64,000 nt of DNA from Fidelibacterota bacterium (GTDB lineage: Bacteria; Fidelibacterota; UBA2242; JAOZSR01), in contig JAOZSR010000002.1 in NCBI GenBank assembly GCA_029939575.1, forward strand, positions 1 to 64,000, read 5' to 3'. The translations under genes and the position numbers were made by a program. Under the pieces are notes generated by a model. That model did not search any database and was not told the DNA's origin. It saw only the letters and a list, made by a program, of their open reading frames with translations. This document shows positions 23,063 through 52,353 of the stretch, piece by piece (within the stretch, counting starts at the first letter, position 1; each line of letters opens with the position of its first letter).

Positions 23063-24187
23063 ATGTTTGAAAATATAAATATAATGCAAGAATCGGAAGT
23101 TAAGCCGGCAATTAACAGGCTAATTAAAGCAAGAGCTTTTTCATTAATGATAAAAGGTATATCCAGGGATCTACCAAAAGAAAAATTGATCAAAATATTT
23201 GATAATATCTCAACAATTAAAGACTTTCAAACAAAATTTATTAAGCCTTTATTAGATACAATTATTTTTAAAACTACAAATGGACTTTCTTATGATGGAG
23301 TAAATAATCTTGACCCATCCCAGGCTTATTTATTTATTTCAAATCATAGAGATATTATTCTGGATTCAACATTTTTAAATTATATCTTATTAAACAATAG
23401 CCATGAAACAACCCAGCTGGCTATTGGGGACAATCTGCTAATTTACCCCTGGATTACTGACTTTTTAAGACTGAATAAAAGTTTTATTGTGAAAAGAGAT
23501 ATGTCACCACGACAACTCTACACTTACTCAAAAAAACTTTCTGAATATATTCACAATACTATTACAAATGAAAAAGTATCTATCTGGATCGCCCAGCGTG
23601 AAGGTCGTGCAAAAGACGGACATGATGAAACACAAACCGGTGTTCTAAAAATGCTTAGCATGGGGAATAAAACAAATTTTGTTGACCATTTTAAATCATT
23701 ACAAATTGTTCCGGTATCAATTTCCTATGAGTTTGATCCTTGTGATAATATAAAAATTAAAGAATTATATCAGAAAAAAACAGGTGGTGAATATTCTAAA
23801 ACAACCAAAGATGATTTGAAAAGTATGATTACCGGCATTACCGGACAAAAAGGACGAGTTCATTATTCAATTGGAAAACCAATTAACAAAGAATTAAATG
23901 ATTTTCAGACTTTCCCGAATCTTAACACTTTTGTTAAAAATTTGGCACTTTTACTCGACCATGAAATCCAATCAAATTATAAACTCTGGAGTACTAATTA
24001 TCTTGCTCATGATATGCTAAATAATACTAGTATGTATACAGATAAATATAACGACAAGGATAAAAAAAGTTTTCAGGAATTGATAGCAGAAAGAATTAAA
24101 GGAATTGACGGTAAAAAAACCGTATTAGAAACCATTTTATTAGAAATGTATTCCAATCCGGTTAAAAATCGACTAAAACGCAGTTAA
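23063..24187 (+). CDS. PlsC-like glycerolipid acyltransferase
   Basis: A 374-residue acyltransferase of the lysophosphatidic-acid/glycerol-3-phosphate group. Catalytic motif I reads SNHRDIILDS near residues 95-104 (His, with the Asp one residue further than in the classic HX4D). A motif III-like AQREGRAKDG lies near 184-193. The C-terminal part is helical. No TM anchor is obvious. It is transcribed alone and ends 2 bases from the end of the convergent GT25 gene, with no terminator between them. Likely role is acylation of a lipid precursor at the membrane; acceptor unknown. Confidence 0.75.
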   Translation: MFENINIMQESEVKPAINRLIKARAFSLMIKGISRDLPKEKLIKIFDNISTIKDFQTKFIKPLLDTIIFKTTNGLSYDGVNNLDPSQAYLFISNHRDIILDSTFLNYILLNNSHETTQLAIGDNLLIYPWITDFLRLNKSFIVKRDMSPRQLYTYSKKLSEYIHNTITNEKVSIWIAQREGRAKDGHDETQTGVLKMLSMGNKTNFVDHFKSLQIVPVSISYEFDPCDNIKIKELYQKKTGGEYSKTTKDDLKSMITGITGQKGRVHYSIGKPINKELNDFQTFPNLNTFVKNLALLLDHEIQSNYKLWSTNYLAHDMLNNTSMYTDKYNDKDKKSFQELIAERIKGIDGKKTVLETILLEMYSNPVKNRLKRS

Positions 24188-42690: not shown

Positions 42691-43512
42691 TTAAATGATA
42701 AAAAACACATAAATATAAATAACAGGGGCTGTAATAAAAAAAGTATCAAACCTATCCAAAACTCCTCCATGACCTAACAAAATTTTACCTGAATCCTTAA
42801 TTTTGTTATCACGTTTAAAAACAGATTCTGTAAAATCACCCAATTGGCTTACTACTCCGGCAATAATTACAAATATTATAATTTGCATAAAATTCATAAA
42901 ATCCGGTTTCAGATTAAATAAATAAAAAACAAGACCGACAACAATAGCGCCAACTAATCCTGAAACACTTCCAACAATTGATTTATTAGGGCTGATTTTG
43001 GGAGCAATTTTCTTTTTACCAAACCAACTTCCGAAAAAATAGGCAAAAGTATCACATATCCAAATCGTGACCAAAAGTAGCAAAATCAAATTAAATCCCT
43101 GACTTTCGTCCATCTCAACATAGCCGGGAATATTCCGTAACATAATCATACATGAAAGAAAAACGGGAATATAAATAAATCCAACAAGTGTTACCGAAAG
43201 CTTTTTAGTAGAACCTTCAATCAATCCTGACAAATTCAATAAAAAAATCATAATACCGAGACCAAGAAAAATTTCAAACAAATAACCTGGAAAAAACTGA
43301 ACACCCAAAATCCAGACTATCCCTGCTAAAAGTCCGGGCAAAAAATAAACTGACATTTCATTTTTTTTAACCATAGAATAAAACTCGATCTGAGCCAGTA
43401 ATGATACTAATAAAATAAATCCGGCAAAAAATAGCCCCCCAAAATAAACTATAGCCAATATGATTGGTATTCCAAAAATACTTACTAATACTCGTGTCAA
43501 TAAACTATCCAT
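42691..43512 (-). CDS. cdsA: phosphatidate cytidylyltransferase CdsA
   Basis: A 273-residue, eight-TM enzyme that makes CDP-diacylglycerol from phosphatidate and CTP, the entry to phospholipid head-group synthesis. The C-terminal CDS signature is clear: SQLGDFTESVFKRDNKIKDS near residues 218-237, followed by LLGHGGVLDRFDT. WICDTFAYFFGSWFGKKK matches the family's internal motif. It starts 2 bases after the rlpA-like gene and precedes the GlmU-like gene, so the three form one operon. Confidence 0.93.
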   Translation of the reverse strand: MDSLLTRVLVSIFGIPIILAIVYFGGLFFAGFILLVSLLAQIEFYSMVKKNEMSVYFLPGLLAGIVWILGVQFFPGYLFEIFLGLGIMIFLLNLSGLIEGSTKKLSVTLVGFIYIPVFLSCMIMLRNIPGYVEMDESQGFNLILLLLVTIWICDTFAYFFGSWFGKKKIAPKISPNKSIVGSVSGLVGAIVVGLVFYLFNLKPDFMNFMQIIIFVIIAGVVSQLGDFTESVFKRDNKIKDSGKILLGHGGVLDRFDTFFITAPVIYIYVFFII

Positions 43513-45730: not shown

Positions 45731-46633
45731 CTATTTCTCAGAAATCCATCTTGGATGAAATGTACGATGTTGCTCTTTCAGATATTCTCTGTCCAAATGA
45801 GAATAAATCTGGGTGGTGGAAATATCAGAATGACCAAGCATTTCCTGTACAGCACGCAAATGAGCACCACCTTCCAGCAAATGCGTAGCAAAGGAATGTC
45901 GAAAAACATGAGGGCTAACTTCTTTTTTTATTCCTGCCAAAACAACATATTGCCTAATAATTTTCCAAATTCCCATTCTGCTTATTGGCGATCCCCGCAT
46001 ATTTAAAAATAAAAAATCTTTACTCTTGGTACCTCTTGATAAATGAGACCGAACAGCAGTAATATATTTATTAATATCGTCATGAGCCTGTTTTCCAAAA
46101 GGTACAATCCGTTCTTTTGATCCTTTACCAAAAACCCTGATTATTTTATGCTCCAGGAAAACATCACTCATTTTCAATCCAATAAGTTCAGACACGCGTA
46201 ATCCTGAGGAATATAATATTTCTATGATTGCTTTGTCTCTTATCCCTTTACTACTGGTAGTATCAATCTGCGCCACAATCTGATTTATTTCATTTAAATC
46301 TAAGACTTTGGGTAATTTTCTTGGTAATCTTGGTGATTGAAGTAATTCAGATGGATCAATTTGTACTAAATTTTCACCTAATAAAAACTTGTGGAAAATG
46401 CGTAAACTTGAAATATTTCGTGTTATACTTGTAGCTGCTAATCCAAGATCAACCAGACAACCAATGAATTTTTGTATATCAGTTAAATGTATTTGGCCCG
46501 GTTGAGTTATTTTTCTTTCTTCCAGAAACTGAATATACCTGTTTAAATCATTTTGATAAGCATCTATAGTATTGTTAGAAAGATTTCTTTCAAACTTGAG
46601 ATAATTAATAAAATCTTTAATATAAATTTGCAT
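45731..46633 (-). CDS. xerD: tyrosine recombinase XerD/XerC
   Basis: A 300-residue site-specific recombinase that resolves chromosome dimers at dif. It has an N-terminal SAM-like domain (1-90, IKDFINYLKFERNLSNNTI). The catalytic set is complete: Arg in SSGLRVSELIGL, Lys in GKGSKERIVPF, HxxR in SPHVFRHSFATHLLEGG, His in LGHSDISTTQIY, and Tyr in the same segment (IYSHL). It is XerD-like in length; only one xer gene is in the window, so it could be the sole Xer. There are no phage or integron features around. Confidence 0.9.
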   Translation of the reverse strand: MQIYIKDFINYLKFERNLSNNTIDAYQNDLNRYIQFLEERKITQPGQIHLTDIQKFIGCLVDLGLAATSITRNISSLRIFHKFLLGENLVQIDPSELLQSPRLPRKLPKVLDLNEINQIVAQIDTTSSKGIRDKAIIEILYSSGLRVSELIGLKMSDVFLEHKIIRVFGKGSKERIVPFGKQAHDDINKYITAVRSHLSRGTKSKDFLFLNMRGSPISRMGIWKIIRQYVVLAGIKKEVSPHVFRHSFATHLLEGGAHLRAVQEMLGHSDISTTQIYSHLDREYLKEQHRTFHPRWISEK

Positions 46634-46789: not shown

Positions 46790-47386
46790 TTATTTTTTTA
46801 TCGGAAAGAGACTTTGTTCTATCAAATCACAAAAAATATGTCCAATACAAATATGAGCCTCCTGGATTCTTTGGGTACTATTTGAGGGAACAATAATTGA
46901 AAAATCGGCTAATTCTTTTAATATTCCTCCAGAACCACCAGTTAGAATTATTGATTTTATTTTGTTCCGATTAGAATATTTTACTGCTTTGATTATATTT
47001 TTTGAATTGCCACTTGTGCTGATTCCTACTAAAACATCATTTGGTTTTCCAAATGCTTCTAATTGTCTTTCAAAAATTCCTGAAAAGTCATCATCATTTG
47101 AAAAAGCTGTAATAAAAGAAGTATCAGTTGTTAAAGCAAGTGCCGGTAAAGCTCTGCGCCGAATATTTAATTTGGCAACTAATTCAGCAGCCAAATGCTG
47201 TGAATCAGCCGCGCTTCCGCCATTACCACAAAAATATACACTTCCACCATTTTTTAGGGATTCAATTAAAATATTTGTAGCATTTAAAATTTCAGCAGAA
47301 AATTCTGAAGCTAGTTTTTGTTTTATATCAGCGCTTTCAGTTAATTGACCTTTAATGAAGTTGATATTACTGATATCTTTGCCCAT
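46790..47386 (-). CDS. gmhA: GmhA-type phosphoheptose isomerase (SIS domain)
   Basis: A 198-residue SIS-domain isomerase converting sedoheptulose-7-phosphate to heptose-7-phosphate for LPS heptose. Motifs: VYFCGNGGSAADSQHLAAEL (about 51-70, active-site region), GISTSGNSKNIIKAV (about 120-134) and RIQEAHICIGHIFCDLIEQ near the C-terminus with the conserved Glu and His. It starts 2 bases after the GGGP synthase gene in the same direction. Other gmh/hld genes are not in the window. Confidence 0.88.
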   Translation of the reverse strand: MGKDISNINFIKGQLTESADIKQKLASEFSAEILNATNILIESLKNGGSVYFCGNGGSAADSQHLAAELVAKLNIRRRALPALALTTDTSFITAFSNDDDFSGIFERQLEAFGKPNDVLVGISTSGNSKNIIKAVKYSNRNKIKSIILTGGSGGILKELADFSIIVPSNSTQRIQEAHICIGHIFCDLIEQSLFPIKK

Positions 47387-47388
47387 AT

Positions 47389-48138
47389 TTACTTTTCTTT
47401 ATAATGAATAGCTTTGGCAAAATCTTCAACTTTGCTAAGTTTTTCATCATCGTCAAAAATATTTCCGGTTACAATGAATGTAGCTCCAGCTTCAACCTTT
47501 TTCCTGGCGTCATCAGGGGTCACAATTCCCCCACCGGTGATAATTGGAATATTAACATATTTTCGAATGGCTTTAATTATATCAACGGGAATTGATTGGT
47601 CGGCACCACTTCCGGCTTCTAAATATATAGTTTTCATTCCAAGATATTGGGCAGCCAATGCATGGGCTACCGCTATTTCCGGCTTATGAACCGGTAAAGG
47701 TTTAGTATTGCTCATAAACTCTGCTGTTGTTGTACGTCCTGATTCAAACAACATATATCCGGTAGAAATTGGTTCTAATCCTGATTTCAATATTGCTGGT
47801 GCAGCAATAACCTGGTCACCAATTAAATAACGTGGATTTCTGCCACTAATAATTGATAAAAAAAGAATTGCGTCAGCATAAGATGAAATTTGTTGCAAAG
47901 AACCCGGAAAAATGATTACAGGAATAGAACAGGTTTCTTTTACAATTTTTATCGTAGTTTCAAAGGTAGAATCCATTATCAGACTGCCACCAATTAAAAA
48001 AGCATCTACTCCCTTATTACTGATTGTTGAAACAAAATCTCTTAATTCGTTTTCTTTACGGGTGTCCGGATCAATCAGGATAAAGTATCCTCCACCTTTT
48101 TTCTGTGCTGAAGCAACTAACTGTTCGTAGATTTTCAT
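47389..48138 (-). CDS. geranylgeranylglyceryl phosphate synthase family protein
   Basis: A 249-residue TIM-barrel prenyltransferase of the GGGPS/PcrB family. It shows GGGYFILIDPDTRKENEL (16-33, phosphate/Mg Asp), FLIGGSL (46-52), IIFPGS, YLEAGSGADQSIPVD and ITGGGIVTPDDARKK with the phosphate-binding TGN at the end. In archaea this enzyme makes the first ether bond of membrane lipids from sn-glycerol-1-phosphate; FCB-superphylum bacteria are known to encode the group II form. Length fits group II rather than short PcrB. It is 5 bases after gcvPA and 2 bases before gmhA. Confidence 0.88.
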   Translation of the reverse strand: MKIYEQLVASAQKKGGGYFILIDPDTRKENELRDFVSTISNKGVDAFLIGGSLIMDSTFETTIKIVKETCSIPVIIFPGSLQQISSYADAILFLSIISGRNPRYLIGDQVIAAPAILKSGLEPISTGYMLFESGRTTTAEFMSNTKPLPVHKPEIAVAHALAAQYLGMKTIYLEAGSGADQSIPVDIIKAIRKYVNIPIITGGGIVTPDDARKKVEAGATFIVTGNIFDDDEKLSKVEDFAKAIHYKEK

Positions 48139-48143
48139 ATATC

Positions 48144-49481
48144 CTATAGTTTTGATAATACGTTAATAAACAAATCCATTTCCTTTTGATCACGCTTTTC
48201 TGTAACAGCTATCAGTAAATGGTTTTTCCATTCTTTTCTATATTCTCCAAGATTGATACCGGCAAATATTTTTTCTTTTAAACAGACATTAATTATTTTT
48301 TGTGGATCAATTTTTGTTTTTACTACAAATTCTTTAAAAAATGGAACGCCAGGATAAGCTAACTCAAAATTACTTAATTTATTAATATTTTCGGCAAGGT
48401 AATGGGCATTGTTCAGACATAGATTAGATATTTTTTCCATTCCCTGTTTTCCAACTAAAGCCAAATATATTGTAGCAGCCAAAGCCATTAAGGCCTGGTT
48501 TGAACAAATATTAGATGTTGCCCGCTCCCTGCGTATATGCTGCTCTCTAGTCTGAAGAATTAATACATATCCTCGTTTACCATCTACATCCTCTGTTTCG
48601 CCAACAATTCTTCCTGGCATTTTCCTGGCTAAAGATTTTTTTGCAGTAAATATTCCCAGGTATGGACCACCAAAAGATTGGTGAATCCCAAGGGGTTGTC
48701 CTTCTGCAACTGCAATATCAGCACCTAATTCGCCGGGAGTTTTTAAAGTTCCCAAGGAAATAGGATCAGTAGAAATAATAAAGTGGGTTTTGTGATTCTG
48801 GATTTGGTTTTTAAGTGCACCAAGTTCTTCAATATTTCCAAGAAAATTTGGAGATTGGACAAGTAATGCAGCAGATTCCGAAAATTTTGAATCTAAATTT
48901 TCAAATAAAGTTCTTCCATTTTCTTCTGCCAACATTTCTATTTCTATATCCCGATTACTCAAATAAGTCTGCAAAACTTCAAGAGATGTCGGGTTAATTA
49001 ATGGTGAAACGAGCACTTTATTCTTCCGATTCACCCCTACACTTAAAATAGCAGCTTCGGCTAAGGCAGTTGCTCCGTCATACATTGACGCATTCCCAAT
49101 TTCCATATCCATTAATTGACAGATCATAGATTGATATTCATAAATTGCCTGTAAAGTTCCCTGGCTTACTTCAGGTTGGTATGGTGTGTATGCAGTGTAA
49201 AATTCTGACCTGGAAAGCAAATAATCAACAACAGCAGGAATATGATGGTCATAGGCTCCACCACCAAGAAAGGAAATATTTTCAGATGTATTTTTATTTT
49301 TTCCGGCAAGTTCAAACATGTGCTTATTTATATCAATATCTGACATAGGTTCAGGAAGTTTGATTTTACATTTTTCCAAAAACTTTTTCGGAATATTTCC
49401 AACAAGTTCTTGAAAATCTTTTTTACCAAGAAACTCTAATATTTTCTTTTCAATTTCCGGTGTGTTAGGTATATACTTCAT
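48144..49481 (-). CDS. gcvPA: glycine dehydrogenase (decarboxylating) subunit 1
   Basis: A 445-residue N-terminal half of split glycine cleavage P-protein. It shows MKYIPNTPEIEKKILEFLG at the start, GGGAYDHHIPAVVDYL (about 86-101), YTAYTPYQPEVSQGTLQAIY (about 112-131) and QTREQHIRRERATSNIC. The PLP lysine resides on subunit 2 (gcvPB), which is not adjacent and not in the window. It lies 2 bases after gcvH. Part of the glycine cleavage/synthase system. Confidence 0.93.
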   Translation of the reverse strand: MKYIPNTPEIEKKILEFLGKKDFQELVGNIPKKFLEKCKIKLPEPMSDIDINKHMFELAGKNKNTSENISFLGGGAYDHHIPAVVDYLLSRSEFYTAYTPYQPEVSQGTLQAIYEYQSMICQLMDMEIGNASMYDGATALAEAAILSVGVNRKNKVLVSPLINPTSLEVLQTYLSNRDIEIEMLAEENGRTLFENLDSKFSESAALLVQSPNFLGNIEELGALKNQIQNHKTHFIISTDPISLGTLKTPGELGADIAVAEGQPLGIHQSFGGPYLGIFTAKKSLARKMPGRIVGETEDVDGKRGYVLILQTREQHIRRERATSNICSNQALMALAATIYLALVGKQGMEKISNLCLNNAHYLAENINKLSNFELAYPGVPFFKEFVVKTKIDPQKIINVCLKEKIFAGINLGEYRKEWKNHLLIAVTEKRDQKEMDLFINVLSKL

Positions 49482-49483
49482 TT

Positions 49484-49861
49484 TTATCCTATTAATTCTT
49501 GATATTTTTCAGCGGATAAAAGATCATTTACTTCTGAGGCATCAGAAAATTTTAACTTAGCAATCCAACCTTCTGTATAAGGATCAGTATTCACAGTCTC
49601 AGATTCATCAATTAATTTTTCATTTATCTCAACTATTTCTCCGGATACAGGTGTGTTCATATCAGCAACTGTTTTAACTGCTTCAATTGTTCCAATAGCA
49701 TCACCTTTTGCAAACTCATCTCCGACTTCCGGTAATTCAATAAATACAATATCACCTAATTCACTTTGTGCATAATCAGTGATACCAACTGTTGCAATTT
49801 CGCCTTCAATTAATACCCATTCATGATTTGATGTATATTTATAATTTTCAGGTGTTTTCAT
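49484..49861 (-). CDS. gcvH: glycine cleavage system H protein
   Basis: A 125-residue lipoyl carrier protein. The lipoylated lysine is in [20 protein letters not shown] (Lys near 63-64). It has the usual start [15 protein letters not shown] and [20 protein letters not shown]. It carries the aminomethyl group between P- and T-proteins and the hydride path to dihydrolipoamide dehydrogenase. Its ATG overlaps the accC stop (ATGA), so it is coupled to the biotin carboxylase gene. No gcvT in the window. Confidence 0.95.
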
Positions 49862-51222
49862 TTCAAAGTCTCCTTTATTTTTAAGAATTTAAATGTATTT
49901 AAAAAACCGGTGTGAAAATCCCCGGAAATAAATGATTTGTCTTGTAAAATAGCCTTATGGAATGGTATCGTTGTTTCGACTCCTGTGATAATAAATTCTT
50001 CCAGAGCTCTTTTCATACGGACAATCGCCTCTTCCCTGTTTTCCCCATGAGTGATTATTTTTGCAATCAATGAATCATAATATGGTGGAATAGTGTATCC
50101 GGTATAAACATGTGTATCAATTCTTGTACTTGGTCCGCCTGGCGCATGAAAATTTATGATTTTTCCGGGATTTGGACGAAAGTTATGATATGGATCTTCA
50201 GCATTTATCCTGCATTCAATAGCATGTCCTCTAATCTTAAAATTCTTTAGCCAATCAGGATTTTTAATATCCATAGCACATTTTATTTGACCTTTTAGTA
50301 AATCAAAATGAGTTACCATCTCAGTTACAGGATGCTCTACCTGAATCCTGGTATTCATTTCTATAAAATATAATTCTCCATCCTGATCCAATAAAAATTC
50401 AACTGTTCCAGCGCTGGTATAATTAACTGCTTTTGCAGCTTTTACAGCAAAAGATCCGATTTTTTCCCGTAATTCTTTATTTACTGCTGGAGATGGAGAT
50501 TCTTCTATTAACTTTTGATGTCTGCGTTGGATAGAACATTCTCTTTCACCAAGATGAACAATATTCCCAAAAGAATCTCCCAGTATCTGGACTTCAATAT
50601 GACGTGCATTCAACACTAATTTTTCCATATATAATTCAGCGTTGCCAAATGCTTTTTGGGCTTCATTTGAAGCTGTTATAAAAGCCTTTTCAATTTCCTC
50701 TTCTTTTTGGACAATTCGCATCCCTTTGCCACCACCGCCAGCGGTGGCTTTTAACAATACTGGAAAACCAATTTTTTTAGCAATAATTTTAGCGTGTGAA
50801 ATATCAGTAATTATACCATCACTTCCGGGAATAACCGGAACTCCTGCTTTAATCATTGTTTTTTTTGCCTGGGCTTTATTGCCCATTAAATTAATAATTT
50901 TAGCAGATGGGCCGATAAATTTCAAATTATTATCTTCGCACATCTGGGCAAAATCAGCATCTTCTGCAAGAAAGCCATATCCTGGATGAATTGCATCAGC
51001 GTTGCTAACTTCCGCAGCACTAATAATTTGTGATTTTTTTAAATAACTGTCACTTCCGGCCGGAGGACCAATACATATTGCTTCATCAGCAAATTTCACA
51101 TGTAAAGATAGTTCGTCAGCAGTAGAATGAACCGCAACAGTAGATATTCCAAGTTCCTTACACGCCCTGATTATCCGAAGTGCAATTTCTCCTCTATTTG
51201 CAATGAGTATTTTCTTTAACAC
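49858..51222 (-). CDS. accC: acetyl-CoA carboxylase biotin carboxylase subunit
   Basis: A 454-residue ATP-grasp enzyme that carboxylates biotin on AccB. It shows the standard [20 protein letters not shown] start, [14 protein letters not shown], the Gly-rich loop [30 protein letters not shown] and [19 protein letters not shown] at 51222 is chosen as start because it gives the canonical N-terminus; an in-frame GTG at 51234 is possible. Follows accB and overlaps gcvH by 4 bases. No accA/accD in the window. Confidence 0.94.
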
Positions 51223-51246
51223 GAGACATTTCACCTTATCTTAAAT

Positions 51247-51780
51247 TTATTCAATAACAAATAAAACCTGATCAAATTCTACAGGTTGAGAGTTTTCAAC
51301 TAATATTTTTACAATTTTTCCGGAATAAGGAGATTCAATTTCATTCATAATTTTCATAGCTTCAATAATACACAAAGTTTGACCTTTTGTAACCACATCT
51401 CCAACTTTAACAAAAGGACCGGCATCCGGAGCAGGCGCATGGTAAAAAGTCCCAACAATTGGTGTCTTCACTTCAAGAATTTCTGAAGATGGTGCAGGTG
51501 AAACGCCGTTTGAATCTGGTAGTATTGGAGGTTGTTGGACTGGTACCTGAGCTGCTGGTAAAACTGTTGCCCCAACCTGTCCGGTATTTTTTGATACCCT
51601 GATTTTTGTACCCCATTTAGAAATCTCAATTTCATCTATATCATGAGATTCCACAACCTTAACAAGATCAAGAACCTGGTCTGTATCATATGATTCAACA
51701 TTTTTTATAAATTTTAATAATTCGTCAAGATTCTTAACATTAACATTTTTCATTAATTCGAGAATTTCTGTAGATTTCAT
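51247..51780 (-). CDS. accB: biotin carboxyl carrier protein of acetyl-CoA carboxylase
   Basis: A 177-residue BCCP. The biotinylated lysine is in CIIEAMKIMNEIESPYSG (Lys near residue 142). A Pro/Ala/Gln-rich linker (about 72-100) precedes the C-terminal biotinyl domain. The N-terminal about 60 residues hold two similar segments (KNVNVKNLDELLKFIKNVES and VLDLVKVVESHDIDEIEISK). Preceded by efp 12 bases upstream and followed by accC; the efp-accB-accC order is common in bacteria. Confidence 0.94.
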   Translation of the reverse strand: MKSTEILELMKNVNVKNLDELLKFIKNVESYDTDQVLDLVKVVESHDIDEIEISKWGTKIRVSKNTGQVGATVLPAAQVPVQQPPILPDSNGVSPAPSSEILEVKTPIVGTFYHAPAPDAGPFVKVGDVVTKGQTLCIIEAMKIMNEIESPYSGKIVKILVENSQPVEFDQVLFVIE

Positions 51781-51792
51781 GCTATCTCCAAT

Positions 51793-52353
51793 TTATTTGA
51801 CACGTTCGCAGTAGCTTCCATCACGAGTATCAATTTTAATTAATTCACCTTCATTGAGAAATAATGGTACATTGACCTTTAAGCCGGTTTCCATTTCTGC
51901 CGGTTTTGATCCCCCGGAAACAGTATCACCTTTTACTCCGGGTTCGGTCTTGGCTATTTTTAATTCAACATGAGTAGGAATTTCTATATCTATTGGATTA
52001 TCAACCTCAAATAGCACTTTTACAACATCGTTTTCTTTTACAAATGGAGCATAACTCTCAAAAATCAAGTCACTTACTACAACTTGTTCATAAGTTTCAT
52101 TGTCCATAAAAACATAATTCATACCGTCATTATAAAGATATTGCATTTTTTTAGCTTCAAGACGAACCACATCCAGTTTTTCTCCTGAGCGAAAAGTATT
52201 ATCAATAACCTGTCCCGAGCGAATATTTTTCATTTTGGTACGGATTTTTGCCCCACCACGTGCAGTTTTTACATGCTGAAACTCAACTATTTTTACTAAA
52301 TCATCTTTATATCTTATTACTAAACCATTTTTTATATCTGATGTTGATGCCAA
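51793..52353 (-). CDS. efp: translation elongation factor P
   Basis: A 186-residue EF-P that rescues ribosomes stalled at polyproline. Three beta-barrel domains are intact. The tip loop of domain I reads KTARGGAKIRTK, with Arg at residue 32 instead of the common modified Lys. TTG start at 52353 with AAGGAG upstream; it gives the standard ASTSDIKNGLVI N-terminus. A sigma-70-like promoter lies 47-75 bases upstream. First gene of the efp-accBC-gcvH-gcvPA-GGGPS-gmhA run. Confidence 0.95.
   Translation of the reverse strand: MASTSDIKNGLVIRYKDDLVKIVEFQHVKTARGGAKIRTKMKNIRSGQVIDNTFRSGEKLDVVRLEAKKMQYLYNDGMNYVFMDNETYEQVVVSDLIFESYAPFVKENDVVKVLFEVDNPIDIEIPTHVELKIAKTEPGVKGDTVSGGSKPAEMETGLKVNVPLFLNEGELIKIDTRDGSYCERVK

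Follow-up and report, generated by a model that had tools for sequence, protein, structure and literature searches.

The window analysed here is a stretch of 64,000 nucleotides from a 3.79 Mb MAG (190 contigs, 95% complete) of the Marinimicrobia, an FCB-group phylum that NCBI names Fidelibacterota. The window genes given below with both coordinates lie on the minus strand. At 47389..48138, an open reading frame of 249 aa, with its ATG at 48138 and its stop codon ending at 47389, encodes a group II GGGP synthase (GGGPS) of bacterial type, as the original prediction had claimed; the protein scored above the cut-offs of both NF003198 (GGGPS subfamily; 293 bits, cut-off 247) and TIGR01769 (GGGP equivalog; 213 bits, cut-off 161.6). 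The predicted spacing was also exact, with gcvPA (48144..49481; NF001696, 596 bits, cut-off 364) 5 bases upstream and a gmhA-like gene for a SIS-domain phosphosugar isomerase (46790..47386; PF13580; TIGR00441, 186 bits, below the cut-off of 209) 2 bases downstream. The gene had been placed within a glycine-cleavage/biotin run. The glycine-cleavage part of this description held, as gcvPA and gcvH (49484..49861; NF002270, 176 bits, cut-off 117) exceeded their NCBIfam cut-offs, whereas the "biotin" genes turned out to be accC (biotin carboxylase; 49858..51234) and accB (biotin carboxyl carrier; 51247..51780) of acetyl-CoA carboxylase and not genes of biotin biosynthesis. These two genes were assigned from sequence and motif without HMM scoring; accC has a same-order ortholog in relatives, and accB, whose order is also conserved, contains the biotinylation motif EAMKIMNEI. 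The run begins with efp (51793..52353) and ends with a gene for a xerC-type recombinase (45731..46633). A CdsA and an acyltransferase had also been proposed in the window. The phosphatidate cytidylyltransferase CdsA (42691..43512) matched PRK11624 only below the cut-off (116 bits, cut-off 385), and a search of NCBIfam at E<=1e-25 gave no match for the candidate acyltransferase at 23063; our argument does not depend on 23063.

The solved structures closest to the window GGGPS were FjGGGPS (4jej, E=1e-51) and MtGGGPS (4mm1, E=1.6e-48), and PcrB was not among the nearest. In the AlphaFold model (pLDDT 88, pTM 0.89), the predicted fold was closest to group II, ahead of PcrB and group I, with a TM of ~0.9 to 4jej, 4mm1, 6jo3 and 6nke and of ~0.75 to group I/PcrB. 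The window protein and FjGGGPS, a group IIb enzyme from Flavobacterium johnsoniae (Bacteroidota), share their length, their fold (TM ~0.9) and 43% identity in the structural alignment, together with the catalytic Tyr/Tyr/Glu residues, the Mg-binding Asp and the limiter Ile. As predicted, the phosphate- and Mg-binding motifs of a group II protein were retained (D23, S177/G178, G203/G204 and T224-G225-N226), and the catalytic residues Y128, Y172 and E174 were present. D23 and Y128 were invariant in an alignment of 112 sequences, in which the other key residues varied in one or two sequences. Ile84, at the position of the proposed group II chain-length limiter, aligned with Ile90 of FjGGGPS and Val86 of MtGGGPS, and this equivalence with FjGGGPS is the one feature that supports a C20 (GGPP) donor.

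A difference was present in the phosphate site. According to PMC9385802, group II enzymes conserve a Thr in place of group I Asn216, and FjGGGPS and MtGGGPS both have Thr at this position, whereas residue 226 of the window GGGPS is Asn. The same residue was found in 88 of the 112 aligned sequences, so the stated Thr rule seems not to define group II, and the remaining group II evidence all appeared to be present in the protein despite Asn226. PcrB, the heptaprenylglyceryl phosphate synthase of Bacillus subtilis, has the superfamily, the fold and the G1P site in common with GGGPS; it belongs to group I, however, and the similarity is weak (profile E of ~1e-9, compared with 1e-71 for 4jej). A PcrB function was rejected at the family level (NF003197, 24 bits, cut-off 260). 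A PcrB-like short-prenyl specificity, which the original prediction had named as a finding that would count against it, is disfavoured because the protein is of group II and not group I and because I84 matches I90 of FjGGGPS.

The order efp-accB-accC-gcvH-gcvPA-GGGPS-gmhA-xerC was found unchanged at the loci of relatives (L098, L099 and L100). This run is widely conserved in Fidelibacterota, with local loss of gmhA or gcvPA, and gcvPA is the neighbour of GGGPS in most members of the phylum too; the glycine-cleavage/acetyl-CoA carboxylase run around GGGPS is the normal gene order for the phylum. Outside Fidelibacterota, GGGPS was often found in an alaS-GGGPS-(PHP)-gmhA arrangement (loci within L098-L177). 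On the same strand and no more than 1.2 kb after GGGPS, a gmhA homologue was found at 6 of 11 loci in Fidelibacterota, 8 of 8 in Zixibacteria, 3 of 3 in Ignavibacteriota, 2 of 2 in Kryptoniota, 3 of 4 in KSB1 and 8 of 15 labelled as Bacteroidota. This adjacency, seen in at least five FCB groups, is an independent marker that supports old vertical inheritance of GGGPS in the FCB group. It is no proof of a functional linkage. The kinase domain of HldE in this genome scored near its cut-off (341 bits, cut-off 345), and gmhA therefore probably serves ordinary heptose synthesis. In the GGGPS tree, the window protein was placed among Fidelibacterota: the smallest set containing it comprised 21 rows (SH-aLRT 96), and all rows labelled Fidelibacterota formed one group. 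GGGPS is vertically inherited, and both the shared gene order and the position in the tree exclude an origin by contamination or by recent transfer.

The original prediction had also suggested that an FCB bacterium may carry archaeal-type lipid genes beside the bacterial ester pathway and that a DGGGP synthase (DGGGPS) and a prenyl synthase should be sought in the genome. Both were found (L004 and L008), as were a geranylgeranyl reductase (GGR) and PlsY (TIGR00023, 153 bits, cut-off 137), and the genome therefore contains ester and ether pathway genes together. The ether-pathway genes are not linked to each other in this genome. Among its five UbiA-family genes, the DGGGPS gene (L004:1225-2091, on contig C19) lies next to a prmC-like gene; its best PDB match was MjDGGGPS (6m31, E=1.1e-33), followed by chlorophyll synthase at only 1e-8. 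The scores of this protein were below the NCBIfam equivalog cut-offs (208 against 269 and 193 against 296). In the tree, it grouped with the DGGGPS homologues of relatives and of poribacteria and with MjDGGGPS, with deep forks that are unsure owing to long branches. The other four UbiA homologues were rejected as DGGGPS: L003 was CyoE-like, L005 was MenA-like, and L006 and L007 were too distant.

The GGR gene (L178:8985-10166, on contig C41) encodes a protein that scored 230 bits with TIGR02032 (cut-off 158.8) and was closest in the PDB to the Thermoplasma acidophilum GGR (3oz2, E=5e-64). Two trans-prenyl synthases were present, L008 and L009. In L008 (on contig C125), the residue five positions ahead of the DDIMD motif is Phe, whereas L009 has Ala at that position. 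Phe at the fifth position before the first Asp-rich motif is the archaeal type-I GGPPS pattern (PMC9385802), and L008 is a probable type-I-like C20 GGPP synthase. We also observed that the MenA-like prenyltransferase near GGR (L178:4693-6069) carries an additional N-terminal region of ~145 residues that, as far as sequence can indicate, resembles a flavin domain of the pyridoxamine-phosphate-oxidase type.

A divergent UbiA homologue, which we term UbiA2 (L178:10372-11328, C41), is the neighbour of GGR here and in related genomes throughout the order. Its model revealed a UbiA fold, with A. fulgidus UbiA and MjDGGGPS as the best PDB matches (TM ~0.6). UbiA2 is probably an accessory gene, because several families with GGGPS, DGGGPS and GGR do not have it next to GGR and because its catalytic Asp motifs are lost in two relatives; a C-terminal YYxxRFxLxYPTF motif is better conserved. 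A poribacterium carries a contiguous UbiA2-DGGGPS-GGR-GGGPS cluster (L132:2452-6732), which opens with UbiA2 (L132:2452-3480). Villanueva 2021 found co-localisation of bacterial GGGPS and DGGGPS only in Cloacimonadota (PMC7852524), and the poribacterial cluster extends it beyond that phylum.

The original prediction held that the lack of a glycerol-1-phosphate dehydrogenase (G1PDH) anywhere in the genome would refute it, and a search for EgsA or AraM with PF13685 and NF002022 found none in this 95% complete genome. The only matches, both rejected as G1PDH, were AroB (L001) and an iron alcohol dehydrogenase (L002). AroB, whose gene adjoins an aroA-like gene, scored 369 bits with TIGR01357 and only 53 bits with the G1PDH model (cut-off 413), and the dehydrogenase scored only 23 bits with that model. 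We consider this view of the G1PDH too strict, because the GGGPS and DGGGPS of Cloacimonadota, which lack a G1PDH, produced PG-archaeol in E. coli engineered for GGPP and G1P (PMC7852524). None of 61 Fidelibacterota genomes had a G1PDH above the curated cut-off; a clear AraM-like homologue (160-166 bits) was found in four of the 61. The one of these four that was checked (L050) was closest in the PDB to a G1PDH (9h4x, E=2.5e-37). In that relative, the AraM-like gene is flanked by two genes named from sequence, one for a glycerophosphodiester phosphodiesterase and the other for a HAD phosphatase (L050:503-3654), and the cluster looks like one for the catabolism of glycerol-1-phosphate compounds.

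The co-occurrence of the pathway genes was counted in those of the 61 genomes that were at least 90% complete. DGGGPS was present in all 33 genomes with GGGPS, and a close GGR was present in 29 of them. Eight genomes were without GGGPS; four of the eight lacked GGGPS, DGGGPS and GGR altogether, and three of these four were small (~1 Mb) genomes of a single family. The association of GGGPS with DGGGPS was significant by Fisher's test at p=0.0007, a value not corrected for shared ancestry. G1PDH is thus nearly absent from the phylum while the other ether-lipid genes are kept, and this makes the glycerol backbone a conspicuous puzzle.

Taken together, the genome carries genes for almost all of the archaeal ether-lipid pathway as it is known, and only the enzyme that usually provides the glycerol building block is missing. 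We consider it likely that the vertically inherited group II GGGPS works with DGGGPS, GGR, the GGPP synthase and CdsA of the same genome in an archaeal-type ether-lipid pathway beside ester lipids. In such a pathway, the type-I-like GGPP synthase would make the C20 donor, GGGPS would form the first ether bond between the geranylgeranyl chain and a glycerol phosphate, DGGGPS would attach the second chain, and GGR would saturate both chains. CdsA and bacterial head-group enzymes would then complete the lipid, while PlsY and related enzymes would supply ordinary ester lipids in parallel, and the cell would have the mixed ether/ester membrane that the original prediction had suggested. As neither PF13685 nor NF002022 detected a G1PDH, the source of G1P is missing, and the backbone may be G1P from another source or G3P. 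More tentatively, Fidelibacterota in general may have mixed membranes with archaeol-type diethers made without a G1P dehydrogenase, either on G3P, giving bacterial stereochemistry, or on G1P supplied by another enzyme, in which the UbiA-like gene beside the reductase would be an accessory part. Whether a natural bacterium has a mixed archaeal/bacterial membrane matters for the lipid divide and for the kind of membrane that early life had.

We also considered that GGGPS might yield only a single-chain prenylglycerol in a PcrB-like manner, dephosphorylated or acetylated, with the UbiA homologue and GGR serving quinone or other prenyl chemistry. Many substrates are known for the UbiA and GGR families, and GGR homologues can act on other prenyl compounds; moreover, GGR lies near MenA in this genome, and four genomes at least 90% complete have GGGPS and DGGGPS without a close GGR. 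There is a precedent in Bacillus PcrB, which makes such a dephosphorylated or acetylated product with a C35 chain (PMC9179154). This explanation is nevertheless unlikely, as the GGGPS is of group II with the same Ile limiter as FjGGGPS, DGGGPS accompanies GGGPS in every near-complete genome and is closest to MjDGGGPS, GGR resembles the DGGGPL reductases (233 bits) far more than it does MenJ (67 bits), and the poribacterial cluster joins DGGGPS, GGR and GGGPS.

Operation of the enzymes in reverse or for uptake, by which archaeal lipids would be degraded or salvaged, has been suggested for FCB bacteria without G1PDH (PMC6431249). The lack of a G1PDH for synthesis and the gene order around the AraM-like G1PDH in at least one relative, which fits catabolism, are both compatible with this suggestion. 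However, prenyl transfer from a diphosphate runs strongly downhill towards synthesis, CdsA-type and PlsY genes coexist here, and this genome is itself without the G1PDH. The Cloacimonadota enzymes also acted in synthesis in E. coli (PMC7852524), and we regard salvage as improbable. An archaeal-type enzyme in a fragmented MAG could, finally, be a contaminant or have been acquired recently from an archaeon. This has next to no probability, since the gene lies within its contig in an order shared with many relatives, groups with Fidelibacterota, was closer in the profile search to bacterial than to archaeal GGGPS, and has a GC content of 36.5%, similar to that of its neighbours.

One carrier of these genes is apparently in culture. 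Genome G036 (L032, L080, L210 and L230) is a single contig of 2,788,509 bp with a GC content of 45.7% (120 kb sampled), in which murA was not found, the only match being weak (85 bits). Fidelibacter multiformis IA91T has a genome of 2.79 Mb with 45.6% GC and depends on other bacteria for peptidoglycan (PMC11652737). From the size, the GC content, the single contig and the missing murA, G036 is very probably this strain. It carries GGGPS above the cut-off, DGGGPS and GGR and no recognisable G1PDH, and a direct lipid test on cells is therefore possible. FAME analysis is not expected to reveal ether-linked isoprenoids. The species description of IA91T gives only fatty acid methyl esters, and the fatty acids are ordinary (PMC11652737). 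In Cloacimonadota, the principal case in the literature, lipid analysis had to wait for an isolate (PMC7852524). Separately, G003 (L239; 98% complete), from the same order as the window genome, had no murA above the cut-off (121 bits) and is a second Fidelibacterota genome, after G036, that may lack peptidoglycan synthesis.

Such gene sets, with GGGPS and DGGGPS and mostly without G1PDH, are already known across FCB phyla, Marinimicrobia included. Coleman 2019 reported GGGPS and DGGGPS orthologs in 12 of 12 FCB phyla surveyed, among them Marinimicrobia, and G1PDH in the FCB group only in Fibrobacteres and Cloacimonetes (PMC6431249). That work was a survey at the phylum level, whereas the present analysis describes one genome with its locus context and four Fidelibacterota with an AraM-like G1PDH homologue. 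The pathway of Cloacimonadota is similar in that an FCB lineage has GGGPS, DGGGPS, GGR, polyprenyl synthases and the bacterial ester pathway but no G1PDH; its GGGPS and DGGGPS were found to be active, its GGGPS also uses G3P to a certain degree, and CdsA can replace CarS (PMC7852524). Archaeal-type phosphatidic acid can be activated by bacterial CdsA homologues. In contrast, GGGPS and DGGGPS are unlinked here, the phylum is another one, and the pathway is predicted from the genome. What is new here is the GGGPS-gmhA adjacency, the UbiA-like gene beside the reductase, the poribacterial cluster and a candidate cultured carrier, and the present locus is a new Fidelibacterota member with a fuller gene inventory and a synteny argument.
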